Of a stretch of 64,000 nt of DNA, positions 18,203-47,234 are shown piece after piece. Positions within the stretch are counted from its first letter, which is position 1. Each line of letters starts with the position of its first letter. The DNA is from Coriobacteriia bacterium (GTDB lineage: Bacteria; Actinomycetota; Coriobacteriia; Coriobacteriales; UBA8131). The DNA lies in the NCBI GenBank assembly GCA_009783085.1, contig WRHU01000003.1, positions 62,001 through 126,000 of the forward strand. The letters are read 5' to 3'. Both the position numbers and the translations under genes were made by a program. The notes beneath the pieces are model-generated. The model was not told the DNA's origin. It searched no databases and was given only the letters and a program-made list of their open reading frames with translations.

Positions 18203-18365
18203 TGGTAGGTTAGTAACGGTTGTCATCCATCAAAAATGATTTCCGTACCCTCATTTTCCTGCTATTTTGTCAAAAAACCTTGACAAAAAGAGGGAGAGGA
18301 AGTATACTGCATACGCATATCCGAGTGGTGGGACACTCTGCCACAACTTAAGAAAGGTTCAGCTC

Positions 18366-20354
18366 ATGAGCTCAAAGTTTTCAACTCACAGCGCACTTTT
18401 TGCTGTGCAAAAAGCTCCAAAAACAAGTGCTCAAACCAAAAGCCAGACGCTTCTTCATGCGGGGTTCTTAAAGCGCACGCTCGCCATGCTTCTTGCGCTA
18501 ATTTTGGCATGTTCGGGCCTTATTGTTTTCCCAGCAGCTGCTTTTGCCGACGAGCCTGCTGAAATTGTTGTCATCTCTGAAGCAACGCAAGACGACGGCA
18601 TCGAAATCGACGACACAATTGAAAGCAGGGAAGACATTCGCGGCGCAAGCGACGCTGAGGCAAAAGATGATGAAGCAAGCGACGATGAAAAAATAGTTCC
18701 ACTTGCAAGTACTATCATTACTGACCCAACTACAAAAATCAACTACTATGTGTGGGGGGAATATGCTACCGTTTGTGGTTATGCAGGCAGCAATACGTCT
18801 TTGGATATTCCAGAAAAACTGGGCGGTTGTTTTATCGATTGTATCGAGCTTCCTCGAGGTAGTCTCAATTTGACCTCCCTCACGGTAAGCAAATGTACGG
18901 CACTTGGGTATCTGGATTGTGCTGACAACAAGCTCACTTCTCTTGATGTAAGCAAGAATAAGAAGCTTTGGTATTTGAAGTGCTCCGACAATTTATTAAC
19001 CACCCTAAATGTGAGTAGCAACCCTGATCTTTCCGAATTGTATTGTGACTACAACAAGCTAAAAACACTTAATCTAGGGAGCCTTTCCAATCTTGAATAT
19101 CTAGGCTGCTCCAGCAACGAACTCACCATGCTTGACGCAAGTAAAAGCACGGGGCTTTCCAGGCTAGCTTGTCACTCCAACAAGCTCACTTCTCTTGACG
19201 TAAGCAAGTTTCGTAAACTCGAAAATTTAGAATGTTCTTCGAACCAGATTTCCAGCATTAACGTGAGCAACAGCCCTGCGCTTACGAGTCTGTCTTGCAG
19301 CGAAAATCAGCTTACTGCACTCAATATAAGCAATAATCCCAGGCTCGCAAGCATCTACTGCAACAGCAACAAACTTTCTGCGCTTGACGCAAGCAAAAAT
19401 CCAGCCCTCCGCTTTCTTCAGTGTTCTACCAATCAAATCAAAGTGCTTGATATAGCCAAAAACAGTGCGCTTGAGTATCTGTATTGCGATGCCAACCAGA
19501 TTTCCGCACTCAATGTGGCTAACAAACCCAAATTACTAAGTCTTTCTTGCGGAGGCAACAAGCTCACCGAACTCGACGTAACTAGAAATGCTGAGCTTAG
19601 TTCGCTGGTGTGCGGAAGCAACAAACTTGCCGTACTTGATGTAAGCAAAAACGTCAAGCTAAAGTGGCTGCGCTGTCAGATCAACGAACTTACGGTTCTT
19701 GACATTAGCAAAAATGTACTATTGCAGCATCTGAGCTGTGAAGCCAACTATATTGTTGACATCTCAGCACTGGTAGCTTGGAGTAAGCAGCCTGGACACA
19801 CAGATTACTATACAGAACTGCAACACTCATTTACTGCTCCCACCATCACAGGAGATGCAGCCATTACGCTTACTGCTGGTTATGCGGCAACTACCAAGGC
19901 GTATGGCATAACTGGTGCTCCAGCGCCTCGGGTATCTTTGGTGGGCGCTCCTGCGGGGGTTACCATTGCTCAAAACGGCACTTTAACTATTCCAGCAGGA
20001 CTTAAGGCTGGAGCCTATAGCTTTAGCATTAAGGCCTTTGTTCAGGCGGCGCCAGCGACTAAGACAGTTAACCTTAAAGTCAATCAAAAACCTTCCATTA
20101 CAGGTGGCAAGTCCAAGGTTACCTTAAAGAAAAAATACAAAAAGACCACCGTTACCTTTAAGCTCAAAGGCTTTCCTGCACCTAAACTTACGATAAAAGC
20201 ACCTAAGAGCATTGCGAAAAAGATAACGATTTCCAAGACAGGCAAGCTCACCATCAAAAAGGGTATTAAGCCGGGAACCTACAAGGTAACCATTACGGCA
20301 AAGAACTCGAAAGGCAAGGCAACAAAGAAGATAACCATCAAGGTTAAAAAGTAG
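18366..20354 (+). CDS. Secreted leucine-rich-repeat protein with Lys-rich Ig-like C-terminus
   Basis: Signal peptide (LAMLLALILACSGLIVFPAAAFA); ~21-aa LRRs (LTSLDVSKNKKLWYLKCSDN...); no LPxTG seen. Confidence 0.85.
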   Translation: MSSKFSTHSALFAVQKAPKTSAQTKSQTLLHAGFLKRTLAMLLALILACSGLIVFPAAAFADEPAEIVVISEATQDDGIEIDDTIESREDIRGASDAEAKDDEASDDEKIVPLASTIITDPTTKINYYVWGEYATVCGYAGSNTSLDIPEKLGGCFIDCIELPRGSLNLTSLTVSKCTALGYLDCADNKLTSLDVSKNKKLWYLKCSDNLLTTLNVSSNPDLSELYCDYNKLKTLNLGSLSNLEYLGCSSNELTMLDASKSTGLSRLACHSNKLTSLDVSKFRKLENLECSSNQISSINVSNSPALTSLSCSENQLTALNISNNPRLASIYCNSNKLSALDASKNPALRFLQCSTNQIKVLDIAKNSALEYLYCDANQISALNVANKPKLLSLSCGGNKLTELDVTRNAELSSLVCGSNKLAVLDVSKNVKLKWLRCQINELTVLDISKNVLLQHLSCEANYIVDISALVAWSKQPGHTDYYTELQHSFTAPTITGDAAITLTAGYAATTKAYGITGAPAPRVSLVGAPAGVTIAQNGTLTIPAGLKAGAYSFSIKAFVQAAPATKTVNLKVNQKPSITGGKSKVTLKKKYKKTTVTFKLKGFPAPKLTIKAPKSIAKKITISKTGKLTIKKGIKPGTYKVTITAKNSKGKATKKITIKVKK

Positions 20355-20373
20355 AATAAAAATGGGCACCATG

Positions 20374-20497
20374 CCCATTAGAAGCACACAGAGCCCTTTG
20401 GTTGGGGTGATACTTCAGTTGTAGTTATGGAAAGTCGTCTATTGCTTTCGCTTAGGCGACTTTCGCACATTTGCCGTCTTGGGTTAATCTCGATGTC
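20374..20497 (+). ncRNA. Two-hairpin RNA-like repeat element, copy A
   Basis: Homologous to 46815-46940; hairpin 1 20381-20416, hairpin 2 20430-20464 (12-bp stem). Confidence 0.45.
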
Positions 20498-20647
20498 AAA
20501 TCTCAGCCAGTTTTTACGTGGCGATTAAGAAAATCAAAAAAACTCACTTTTCTCTTGCACTTTAGTACAGTAGTGTGATAAAGTGTTACGAAAGCACTGT
20601 AAAATGCTTTATACTACTAACAAGAAAAGGCAAGAGGAAAGGAACCT

Positions 20648-36277: not shown

Positions 36278-36345
36278 TCAAGTAAGAACTGGCTAATAAA
36301 AAAGTAAGAAAAAATATAACCCACGTATAGAAACGGTACAGAGCC
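36278..36345 (+). repeat. Dispersed repeat family D, copy 2
   Basis: tcaagtaagaactggctaataaaaaagtaagaaaaaatataacccacgtatagaaacggtacaga; near-identical to the reverse complement of 47171-47234. Confidence 0.75.
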
Positions 36346-36417
36346 GGTACAGAATCGTGTGCCATGATGGCTTTCCGCAGTTGCCCAAAAGGAGGGCAGC
36401 ACGTAGAAAGGAGCATC

Positions 36418-36987
36418 ATGGAACACGCAGAAGTACCGATGGAAGCACGGGCAGGAGCAGTTATGGAGCGACCTGTCGAGGGAGAAAAATCCAGAGAAAC
36501 ACGCAATCAAACACGCAATCTCGAACGCAAATCTTTATCACCGGCACGTACCATCAAGAAACCTGTTGCGCCGCCAGCCAGCCGCGCAAAAAACGCAGCC
36601 GCCTCACCTGCTCGCAACACCAAAAAAGCCAAAGAAATAGGGAGAAAAGGTGAGGAGGTCGCTTGCCTCTATCTTGCAGAAAACAACATTCAAATACTTG
36701 AGCGCAACTGGCGTTGTGGGGCAGGGGAGGCAGATGTTATTGCTCGTGAGGGCGATGACCTTGCATTCATAGAGGTCAAAACTCGCTCATCTCTTAACCT
36801 TGGCTTTCCTGAGGACGCCATAACACGCGACAAGCGGAGCAAGTATGAGCGCATTGCACTTCATTATCTGGCAGCCCACGCACAGCCGAGCTCTCGGGTA
36901 CGTTTTGATGTTATTGCGGTGGTGCTCATTGAAGAAGCTCAGGCTTTGCTGCGCCATCATCGAGATGCTTTTGGTGTTGGTGAATGA
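36418..36987 (+). CDS. UPF0102/YraN family endonuclease-like protein with basic N-terminal extension
   Basis: GRKGEEVACLYLAENNIQILERNWRCGAGEADVIAREGDDLAFIEVKTRSS; ATG 36418 with GAAAGGAG RBS. Confidence 0.85.
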   Translation: MEHAEVPMEARAGAVMERPVEGEKSRETRNQTRNLERKSLSPARTIKKPVAPPASRAKNAAASPARNTKKAKEIGRKGEEVACLYLAENNIQILERNWRCGAGEADVIAREGDDLAFIEVKTRSSLNLGFPEDAITRDKRSKYERIALHYLAAHAQPSSRVRFDVIAVVLIEEAQALLRHHRDAFGVGE

Positions 36988-37018
36988 TGCAGCGAGCGAC
37001 GTCCACCAGAAAGGAGGC

Positions 37019-38725
37019 ATGATGCGAGGCAGAACGGAGCGTATGGCGTGTGTTAATACGGCGACCATAAATGGCGTGGAGACCCTGCCCGTTACCGTTG
37101 AAGTAAGCATTGGCAGCGGTTTGCCGGGTATCTCTATAGTGGGCATGCCCGATTTGGCGGTGCAGGAGGCACGCTTGCGTGTGCGTCTTGCGCTTATTGC
37201 CGCAGGCTTTGAGGTGCCCCAGCGCCATGTGGTGGTAAATCTCGCACCCTCCTCACTAAAAAAGATAGGATCAGGTTTTGATCTGCCCATTGCTCTGGGG
37301 ATTTTGATTGCCACCGAGCAGCTTGCGCCCGAGCTTATTGGGGAGTACGTTTGTGTTGGTGAGCTTTCGCTCGATGGCTCGGTGCGCCCCGTCAAAGGTT
37401 TGCTTGCTTACGAGAAGCACGCCCATGAGGCTGGTTTTGGCTTGCTAACGGCACCCGTCGAGCAAGGTGTGTATGAGCTTTCTGAGTCTGAGCATTTTTG
37501 TATAGCTTCGCTTGCCGATTTGCACACGGGTGAGTTTATGCTGCCGAATGCTCGCACTACGCAGCATGCAGAAATGGACTTTGATTTTTGCGAAATTGAC
37601 GGCAACGATGTGGCAAAACGAGCCCTGCAAATTGCCGCTGCTGGCTCGCATGGCATTTTGCTGGTAGGGCCTCCCGGCTCGGGAAAGTCGATGATGGCTG
37701 CACGCCTGCCCACTATTTTGCCGCCGCTTGATAAAAATGAACGTATTGAAAGCGCAATGATTCACTCGGTTGCTGGCTTATCTTTTGATGGGATTCTAGC
37801 TGGCTTTCAGCCCTTTCGCTCTCCGCACCACAGTGCCTCGCAGGCAGGTTTGATGGGTGGCGGTTCGCCGGCATCTCCTGGGGAGGTTTCGCTGGCGCAC
37901 AGCGGTGTTTTGTTTTTGGATGAAATGCCTGAGTTTGGCAACGCTGTTTTACAGATGCTGCGTCAACCCATAGAAACTGGTCTGGTTTCTTTGGCGCGTG
38001 CGCGCGGTACGGTGGTGTTTCCTGCACGCTTTTTGCTGGTAGGTGCTGCCAATCCGTGCCCGTGCGGTTACTACGGTGACGCACAGCACGCTTGTCGCTG
38101 TACTCCTGCCCAAATTACTAATTATCAAGGACGCATTGGGGGTCCGCTTATGGATAGGTTTGATTTGATAGTAAAAGTGTGGCGAAGCGACCCCACGCAG
38201 GTCTTAAGAACGGGGAAGGGCACGAGCTCGATGGCTTTGCGCGAGGGGGTTTTGCAGGCACGTGCTTATCGGGAAAAACGAGAGGCTGCTTTTGCCGAAA
38301 TGTCTGAAGATATGCTCACGCACAAGGGCAAAGGCAAGAACAAGAGTGTGGAGTCTGTAGCAAAGCCTGTTGAGGAGCTGGCTGCACACGTGGGAGAAGT
38401 GGGCGATGTGAGCGAAGTGTACGAAGTGTACGATGGGGGCGAAGAGGGCGAAGCGTGCGATGGAGGCGAAGTGTGCGAAGCGTGTGAGAAGGGCGAAGCG
38501 CCAACAGGAAAAGGCGCACGTCTTATCGCCTCGTGTTTTCTTGGTGCAAAAGAGCTTAGTTGTCTTGAGGATATGGCACGCCACTACCATCTCAGTGGGC
38601 GAGGCATTATGCGTGCGCTTGCCGTTGCCCGCACCATCGCCGACATTGAGCAGCAAGAAAAGGTGAGCAATGAGCATCTCTTAGAGGCGATTACCTTTAG
38701 GGCAGACGGGGAGGACGGACTATGA
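37019..38725 (+). CDS. comM: YifB/ComM family Mg chelatase-like AAA ATPase
   Basis: ATINGVETLPVTVEVSIGSGLPGISIVGMPD, GPPGSGKSMMAARLPTILPPL, AANPCPCGYYGD; ATG 37019 with AAAGGAGG. Confidence 0.92.
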   Translation: MMRGRTERMACVNTATINGVETLPVTVEVSIGSGLPGISIVGMPDLAVQEARLRVRLALIAAGFEVPQRHVVVNLAPSSLKKIGSGFDLPIALGILIATEQLAPELIGEYVCVGELSLDGSVRPVKGLLAYEKHAHEAGFGLLTAPVEQGVYELSESEHFCIASLADLHTGEFMLPNARTTQHAEMDFDFCEIDGNDVAKRALQIAAAGSHGILLVGPPGSGKSMMAARLPTILPPLDKNERIESAMIHSVAGLSFDGILAGFQPFRSPHHSASQAGLMGGGSPASPGEVSLAHSGVLFLDEMPEFGNAVLQMLRQPIETGLVSLARARGTVVFPARFLLVGAANPCPCGYYGDAQHACRCTPAQITNYQGRIGGPLMDRFDLIVKVWRSDPTQVLRTGKGTSSMALREGVLQARAYREKREAAFAEMSEDMLTHKGKGKNKSVESVAKPVEELAAHVGEVGDVSEVYEVYDGGEEGEACDGGEVCEACEKGEAPTGKGARLIASCFLGAKELSCLEDMARHYHLSGRGIMRALAVARTIADIEQQEKVSNEHLLEAITFRADGEDGL

Positions 38726-39702
38726 GCGCTGCTACTCTTAACGGCTCTCGCTCAGAAATAGCCGCAGGGCACCCCTTGTTTCCGTCTGATTTGAGCGAGC
38801 TACAAGAGCCTGTCAAACGTTTATATTGTGTGGGAGAAGTTGGCCTGCTTGCGCTGCCCTCGCTTGCCATTGTTGGCGCACGTAAGGCAAGCCCCTATGG
38901 CCAAAGCTGTGCTCATCGTTTTGCTCGCCGGGCAGCGCAAGCAGGCTTAGTTGTGGTTTCGGGAGGAGCTATCGGCTGTGACCAGGCAGCGCATCGTGGT
39001 GCGCTTGAAGCCGGTGGCAAGACCATCGTTGTTTTGGGCTGTGGTGCAAATGTTGTCTATCCATTGCGAGGGCGTGTTCTTTTTGAGGAAGTGCTTGCCA
39101 CCGGCGGGCTAATAATTTCTGAGGCTCCATGGGATACGCCGCCTTTGCGGTGGGCGTTTCGCAAACGCAATCGCATTATTGCTGCTTTAGCGTACGCAAC
39201 ACTCATAGTAGAAGCAGGTTTGCCGAGCGGCACCTTTTCAACGGCGGACTATACGCTTGCGCAAGGCAAAGATGTGCTCGCCGTGCCAGGCTCCATTGAC
39301 TCTAGAGAGTCGCACGGTTCTAATCGTCTGATTTTGCAGGGTGCGTATCCCATTATTGATCTTGACAGCTTTGACGATACGCTTGCAGGCATTTTTGGAG
39401 TGAACCTTGAGGAAGCAGGTTCGCAAGACGTGGCTGCACGCACCACACCCGAAGTCGCCGCCCAAAACAACACCACTTTGTCACTGAGTAAAAAGGAAGC
39501 GGACATACTTAAAGCTTGTACCGCCCAGTCCTTGCGTGCCGAGGAGCTTGTTGGGGCTCTTGCGGCATCTACGCAGCAAAACAACGAAAGCAAAAACCAA
39601 GTGCCTGATCTTTTAGAGGTCATACGTCTTTTGTCAGGTTTGGAACTCAAGCGCAAAATTGTTCGGCTGCGCGATGGTCGCTATGCTGCGAAAACTGGTT
39701 AG
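38722..39702 (+). CDS. dprA: DNA-processing protein DprA
   Basis: AIVGARKASPYGQSCAHRFARRAAQAGLVVVSGGAIGCDQAAHRGAL, AVPGSIDSRESHGSNRLILQGAYPI. Confidence 0.95.
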   Translation: MSAATLNGSRSEIAAGHPLFPSDLSELQEPVKRLYCVGEVGLLALPSLAIVGARKASPYGQSCAHRFARRAAQAGLVVVSGGAIGCDQAAHRGALEAGGKTIVVLGCGANVVYPLRGRVLFEEVLATGGLIISEAPWDTPPLRWAFRKRNRIIAALAYATLIVEAGLPSGTFSTADYTLAQGKDVLAVPGSIDSRESHGSNRLILQGAYPIIDLDSFDDTLAGIFGVNLEEAGSQDVAARTTPEVAAQNNTTLSLSKKEADILKACTAQSLRAEELVGALAASTQQNNESKNQVPDLLEVIRLLSGLELKRKIVRLRDGRYAAKTG

Positions 39703-46725: not shown

Positions 46726-46804
46726 CCGCAAGAGGACGACCTATTAGTTTTCTGACCGATAACTCTATCAACGCGTTTTGTCCTATAAGCCTAATTTCAA
46801 AATG

Positions 46805-46813
46805 TGGTACAAT
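46805..46813 (+). promoter_or_regulatory. Extended -10 promoter for RNA element copy B
   Basis: TGGTACAAT; no clear -35. Confidence 0.45.
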
Positions 46814-46814
46814 A

Positions 46815-46940
46815 CCCATTAAGGGAGTACACAGAACCCTTTGGTTGGGGTGGTACTCCGGTTGTAGTTTTTGGGAAGTCGTCTATTGCTTGCGCTTAGG
46901 CGACTTCCGCGCATTTGGCGCCGCGATGTTAATCTCGACG
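46815..46940 (+). ncRNA. Two-hairpin RNA-like element, copy B; candidate antitoxin RNA antisense to the 46883-47068 ORF
   Basis: Hairpin 1 46824-46859 (GGAGTAC..GTACTCC), hairpin 2 46874-46908 (12-bp stem); compensatory differences versus copy A. Confidence 0.5.
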
Positions 46941-47068
46941 AAAATGCGCTCAATATTTACAACCTTTGTAGCCTCCTTTCGTCCTCTCAGGCCTATCACA
47001 ATAGGCACGATCAGTTGAACAAGTGTCGGCACAAGGCCGAATAAAAGTTCAAAAAAGGTATTACCCAT
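46883..47068 (-). CDS. Small hydrophobic protein (61 aa), candidate membrane toxin
   Basis: MGNTFFELLFGLVPTLVQLIVPIVIGLRGRKEATKVVNIERIFVEINIAAPNARKSPKRKQ; ATG with AAAGGGG RBS; one TM helix plus basic tail. Confidence 0.5.
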   Translation of the reverse strand: MGNTFFELLFGLVPTLVQLIVPIVIGLRGRKEATKVVNIERIFVEINIAAPNARKSPKRKQ

Positions 47069-47102
47069 AAGTAGGACCCCTTTCAATTATCGAATTGAAT
47101 AA

Positions 47103-47140
47103 TCGAAACCGGAGTACCACCCAAGGCTCTGTGTACAGCC
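47103..47140 (-). repeat. Inverted copy of RNA hairpin 1 in the leader of the small ORF
   Basis: Reverse complement ggctGTACACAGAGCCTTGGGTGGTACtCCGGTTtcg matches GGAGTACACAGAACCctttGGTTGGGGTGGTACTCCGGTTg. Confidence 0.7.
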
Positions 47141-47170
47141 TTCACCATAGCAAGCGATTCTTGCTGGAGT

Positions 47171-47234
47171 CTGTACCGTTTCTATCCTTTTTCTATATTT
47201 TTTATTACTTATTTATTAGCCAGTTCTTACTTGA
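47171..47234 (-). repeat. Dispersed repeat family D, copy 3 (inverted)
   Basis: Reverse complement tcaagtaagaactggctaataaataagtaataaaaaatatagaaaaaggatagaaacggtacag versus 36278-36345. Confidence 0.75.

Follow-up and report, generated by a model that had tools for sequence, protein, structure and literature searches.

Locus and element copies

The window (the whole 64,000-nucleotide stretch analysed here) contains two copies of a two-hairpin element on its forward strand, one of which converges with a small peptide gene. In copy B, a promoter-like sequence TGTGGTACAAT (46803–46813, forward strand; a conserved block recognized by consensus) precedes an antitoxin-like small antisense RNA (46823–46908, forward strand) that is predicted from a covariance model (107.7 bits) and from its fold, and that comprises hairpin 1 (46824–46859, forward strand) and hairpin 2 (46874–46908, forward strand). 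Hairpin 2 is complementary to the 3′ end of a reverse-strand gene (46883–47068) for a toxin-like peptide of 61 amino acids with a hydrophobic N terminus (MGNTFFELLFGLVPTLVQLIVPIVIGLRGRKEATKVV..KSPKRKQ), and the stop codon of this gene lies inside the hairpin. Upstream of the gene are its mRNA leader (47069–47136, reverse strand) and a competence-type promoter region (47143–47234, reverse strand; box GTAAGAACTGGCTAATAAATAA at 47209–47230). Copy A consists of a promoter-like extended −10 element GGGCACCAT (20364–20372, forward strand; consensus-based, family consensus TGnTAnnnT), a solitary antitoxin-like small RNA gene (20380–20464, forward strand; 94.3 bits) with hairpin 1 (20381–20416, forward strand) and hairpin 2 (20430–20464, forward strand), and a decayed competence box TTAATCGCCACGTAAAAACTGGCTGAGA on the reverse strand (20501–20528; compare ATTAATCGCCAAGTAAGAACCGGCTAATA at locus L057).

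A first-pass annotation had aligned the two copies, and blastn bears out their positions (20359–20493 against 46799–46938, 82.9% identity over 140 columns, E = 4 × 10−33). The covariance model, built from four copies, gives the best remaining site in the window 15 bits. The compensated stems are as that annotation described them: hairpin 2 reads GAAAGTCG..CGACTTTC in copy A and GGAAGTCG..CGACTTCC in copy B, hairpin 1 reads GAAG..CTTC in copy A and GGAG..CTCC in copy B, and the loop core CCCTTTGGTTGGGGTG is common to both, with the unpaired positions of copy A amounting to exactly two broken pairs, both C·A, in hairpin 1. The fold of copy A has a z-score of −2.6, with 2 of 200 shuffles equally good, whereas the other copies reach about −4 with no shuffle equally good; copy B folds at −39 kcal/mol (z = −4.2). 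A same-sense repeat resembling hairpin 1, at 47106–47136 on the reverse strand, had been overlooked.

A structured RNA family in Coriobacteriales

Copies A and B are real, but the picture of a single pair is too small, as the 1.58-Mb genome (G000) contains six copies: A, B and those at C6:78741, C3:23698, C7:8155 and C1:173886 (reverse strand). The C1 copy has diverged, with stems that are altered at many positions yet remain paired (GGAATAC..GTATCCC; GGAAGTCAGCTA..TAGCTGACTTCC). Diverged relatives were found in five other Coriobacteriales genomes (G008, G385, G028, G011 and G014) by the covariance model, which was run over 399 genomes of the order and then over the family with looser filters. 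A protein-based search of the 399 genomes for relatives gave nothing convincing, and a DNA-based search gave only short matches at chance level. G008 has ten RNA copies, and among those read, three have a full peptide gene (MDEPYLAIVIF.. or near it). The same architecture is present in G385, which belongs to another family (peptide MSTVAAVLEVIAAAISLAAAVLDLLGQLGRRSNRR, with a TTG start), and in G028 (peptide MDTPTILSAVATLLVALAELGHVAFMFWREKRRDRTKRQL) and G011 (peptide MELVFVLAAVETIVTTVITVYEWVRKRK), whose matches are weak by model score (E = 0.02–0.03) and were accepted on architecture; G014 has the RNA without a recognizable peptide. Matches L069, L070 and L073 were dropped on inspection as terminators or coding sequence, and L118, L121 and L125–L127 were also dropped on inspection. 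A scan of the window against Rfam gave no match at gathering score, and permissive scans stayed far below the gathering scores.

Several G008 contigs (C30, C33, C41, C29, C49 and C27) end inside or beside the element; copy number is therefore probably under-counted in draft genomes. Three G008 copies of the RNA (L074, L076 and L081) face a peptide gene that breaks off at the same position each time, ACTATGGTA|AGACCACATYAAARCTGGGGGG, beyond which lie poly-G and different sequence; this is a recurrent rearrangement point.

The first-pass annotation had staked its RNA on covariation in a larger alignment, and pair counts find it there. In an 18-sequence alignment that was fitted to the model and leans towards structure (the G011 sequence left out; shuffling and sliding as controls), both sides change in 21 of 26 pairs, compared with 10.6 ± 1.6 after shuffling and at most 8 with the partner slid. 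In the same 18 sequences, 90% of cells pair, compared with 37–52% in slid registers. RNAalifold on a plain MAFFT alignment (A8) returned only 7 pairs owing to misalignment of the arms of the hairpins, and pair counts were therefore taken from the model-fitted alignments. Read in the forward sense, G–U pairs outnumber A–C combinations by 39 to 17 (cells that are not independent), which suggests that the forward strand is the transcribed sense. At the level of sequence comparison, structural selection on the RNA is supported.

A convergent peptide gene

Complete units account for three of the six G000 copies (B, C6 and C3) and have, on the opposite strand, a 61-codon open reading frame with a Shine–Dalgarno sequence at its start, a hydrophobic N-terminal half and a basic tail. 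The frame is recovered by tblastn, and across codons 1–37 of the three copies pN is 0.025–0.055 against a pS of 0.20–0.29 (pN/pS of about 0.1–0.2); the peptide is therefore selected. The annotation had assigned selection to the RNA rather than the peptide; the half that concerns the RNA stands, but the peptide is conserved too, and the convergent layout recurs in G008, G028, G011 and G385 with unrelated peptides. Across the five lineages the peptides are 61, 63–65, 35, 40 and 28 amino acids long and have no evident sequence similarity to one another, but in all of them basic residues come after a hydrophobic stretch; 19-residue hydropathy peaks are 2.3–2.6 where measured (G000, G008 and G385). 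In four of the five lineages, hairpin 2 contains the stop codon. An intact peptide gene is absent from half of the G000 copies and from several in G008.

The 61-residue peptide has no match in Pfam, PHROGs or PADLOC and no NCBIfam toxin family above cut-off. A phage or plasmid origin was rejected on the basis that the unit has no match among plasmids, phages or viral contigs. As the window contains no tRNA, derivation of the SNRR-like reading frame from an antisense tRNA was rejected as well.

A repeat of hairpin 1 in the peptide leader

The leader segment at 47106–47136 is a second, shortened hairpin 1 whose sense is that of the small RNA, and in all five lineages the 3′ half of hairpin 1 recurs in the leader in this sense. 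Across eight leaders from the five lineages, the same-sense match has P values of 0 to 0.013 by shuffling, whereas matches in the antisense direction are at background in all but one palindromic case. The segment is predicted to act as a lock, in which GGGU and an anti-Shine–Dalgarno segment pair with the ribosome-binding site immediately upstream of the start codon. Seven of the eight leaders show this pairing in their minimum-energy fold; for G028 and G011, the leader fold has no clear stability advantage over shuffles (z = −0.2 and −1.1). If the leader segment is the lock strand, the small RNA would carry a copy of that strand in the 3′ arm of hairpin 1. Predicted pairing in trans between the small RNA and the ribosome-binding site exceeds that of shuffles for copies C6 and C3 only.

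These features bear on whether the element might be a miniature transposable element, with the hairpin-1-like ends as terminal inverted repeats and the hairpins as transposition ends. Its multiple copies, its length of about 330 bp, the inverted ends of three copies and the G008 contigs that end in or near it would fit such an origin. The repeats, however, sit inside the transcription unit with the promoters outside both, and three of the six copies lack the second repeat, so that inverted ends are not found in every copy. In addition, the leader repeat still pairs with the ribosome-binding site from one lineage to the next, and selection acts on the peptide; we regard this origin as very improbable.

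The sole terminator-like site reported in the region is at hairpin 1. Downstream of hairpin 2, this genome has no clear T-run, which leaves the 3′ end of the RNA uncertain; the G014 relative (L072) has a T-run. If the element were instead a tandem terminator or attenuator that closes genes and does not act in trans, that one site and the position of copies A and C1 directly after LRR genes would be explained. This reading is barely credible against a promoter-like block (consensus-based) that 17 sequences of A8 conserve ahead of hairpin 1, a conserved loop core, the lack of a T-run after hairpin 2 here and the copy of hairpin 1 in the peptide leader.

A promoter common to competence genes

The 90 bp upstream of the peptide gene are a promoter that is dispersed in the genome. 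Within the window, the same promoter (36278–36369, forward strand; 82% identity) precedes the yraN–comM–dprA genes (36364–39702), which were assigned to UPF0102, YifB/ComM and DprA. The 22-base box has exactly 8 matches in the genome, compared with 0 for a reversed control pattern, and these precede the peptide gene (at two loci), comEA, comFC, yraN–comM–dprA, rpsF–ssb, the Tad pilus gene cpaB and a locus with a 31-codon open reading frame. From this set of genes, the genes behind the box are inferred to form a competence regulon, whose promoter is apparently undescribed in Coriobacteriales. By eye, the common core of the promoter is TAAGAAYYGGYTAA. In G008 the box has diverged (GGTTAAG repeats), and the peptide promoter is again common to cpaB and yraN–comM; the link to a competence promoter is seen in these two genera only.

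The full motif consists of the box GTAAGAAYYGGCTAATAAAnAA followed by GGTACAGA repeats and TGCTATGRT (36278–36369 in the window; L053, L055, L057 and L089). At L054 (G000:C3:47184–47273, reverse strand), the competence promoter precedes the 31-codon frame MHTQKTAKIIIPKGVKRIKFINRHGIVVEIT, which has no NCBIfam match and is possibly a further competence peptide.

Membership of the regulon could also mean that the peptide acts at the competence stage in the membrane without being a toxin, for example by regulating the uptake machinery or as a bacteriocin-like product, with the RNA as an ordinary antisense regulator. The promoter would then be that of a regular regulon member; moreover, no family match labels the peptide a toxin, and its toxicity is a prediction. 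We nevertheless consider this unlikely, because interchangeable toxins would explain the dissimilar peptides within the same RNA frame better than a specific part of a machine would, and solitary RNA copies are what decaying toxin–antitoxin loci leave behind.

Solitary copies and the LRR neighbourhood

In copy A, the peptide gene has been deleted between the decayed box (20501–20528, reverse strand) and hairpin 2; the C1 copy, which has an intact box core, is likewise without the peptide. The annotation had the antisense frame of copy A broken and without the rest of the open reading frame. Most of the frame is indeed deleted, but across hairpin 2 the reverse strand retains RKSPKRKQ-stop in frame. 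Read in this way, copy A is atypical of the element: it is a remnant of the RNA–peptide unit, a solitary antitoxin-like RNA gene that may still act in trans on paralogous mRNAs or may be decaying.

The position behind the LRR gene, given for copy A in the annotation, applies to copies A and C1, and thus to only some of the copies. LRR-type genes with near-identical Ig-like C-terminal repeats (18267–20354 in the window; L058) end directly before these two copies, and the 3′ ends of this multicopy gene family may be hot spots for the element. At L013 (G000:C3:23450–24300) there is a complete peptide gene without its own promoter; past the leader hairpin, the sequence runs into a frame resembling the C-terminal repeats of LRR proteins.

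A probable type I toxin–antitoxin-like module

We estimate a probability of about 0.7 that the element represents the antisense-RNA component of a type I toxin–antitoxin-like module. The basis for this reading is the combination of a two-hairpin RNA on the forward strand, a convergent peptide gene, a same-sense repeat in the peptide leader and a promoter shared with competence genes. By folding prediction, the leader segment (GGGU..anti-Shine–Dalgarno) would pair with the ribosome-binding site and keep the peptide untranslated. The small RNA would be made from its own promoter, would base-pair with the peptide mRNA along the hairpin-2 region, where the two are fully complementary, and might supply a second copy of the lock strand in trans. 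The peptide would then appear only if competence transcription exceeds the small RNA, and may enter the membrane, where it could slow, arrest or lyse the cell, or limit competence.

If this reading is correct, the question of why competent cells would make a membrane peptide becomes testable. Type I systems would also extend to Coriobacteriales, through an RNA family that is absent from Rfam, five dissimilar peptides and a recurring link to competence promoters, and the core TAAGAAYYGGYTAA would provide a handle on an apparently uncharacterized competence regulon. Somewhat short of an even chance is the broader proposal of a new type I class, with no earlier member in Actinobacteria. In such a class the lock of the mRNA would be duplicated in the antitoxin RNA through inverted instead of direct repeats, and the toxin would belong to a competence regulon, such that cells readying for DNA uptake would make a membrane peptide.

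Comparison with known systems

In Fst/RNA II (the par locus of plasmid pAD1), a toxin mRNA and a small RNA converge and overlap in a 3′ hairpin common to both, the toxin translation start carries another repeated region, and the Shine–Dalgarno sequence is sequestered intramolecularly; Fst is a small hydrophobic peptide with a charged tail, and the direct repeats DRa and DRb give rise to complementary RNAs (PMC7472228). The element resembles par in its convergent genes with a shared 3′ hairpin, in a second repeat at the translation start, in the predicted Shine–Dalgarno-sequestering stem-loop (7 of 8 leaders) and in its small hydrophobic peptide with a charged tail. The main difference is that the repeats of the element are inverted, such that RNA and leader have the same sense and there is no direct-repeat complementarity. 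Hairpin 2 also overlaps the coding region, unlike in par. Unlike Fst, the peptides match no Pfam family and no NCBIfam toxin family above cut-off, and they are encoded in an actinobacterium. The bidirectional intrinsic terminator of par may have a counterpart in the shared hairpin, which has no clear T-run in this genome but has one in a relative (G014, L072).

TxpA/RatA and BsrG/SR4 of Bacillus subtilis have convergent antisense antitoxins that overlap the toxin mRNA at the 3′ end (stated overlaps of about 75 and 120 nt), and TxpA has 59 amino acids (PMC4147584). The element shares with them the convergent 3′-overlapping antisense RNA and the small peptide, whereas the description of these two systems mentions no hairpin with a repeat of the toxin leader (PMC4147584). 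The link to a competence regulon has a counterpart in toxTA of Haemophilus influenzae, a toxin–antitoxin system within the competence regulon (PMC6957337), although toxTA is a type II system with a protein antitoxin, in a Gram-negative host and with unrelated proteins and regulator. Earlier type I hosts are named as Proteobacteria, Firmicutes and Tenericutes only, with no Actinobacteria, and msoT1/msoA1 of the cyanobacterium Microcystis aeruginosa was proposed in 2025 as a type I system outside the classical phyla (PMC12390103). The element is otherwise unrelated to msoT1/msoA1, and would be its like as a type I system beyond those phyla.
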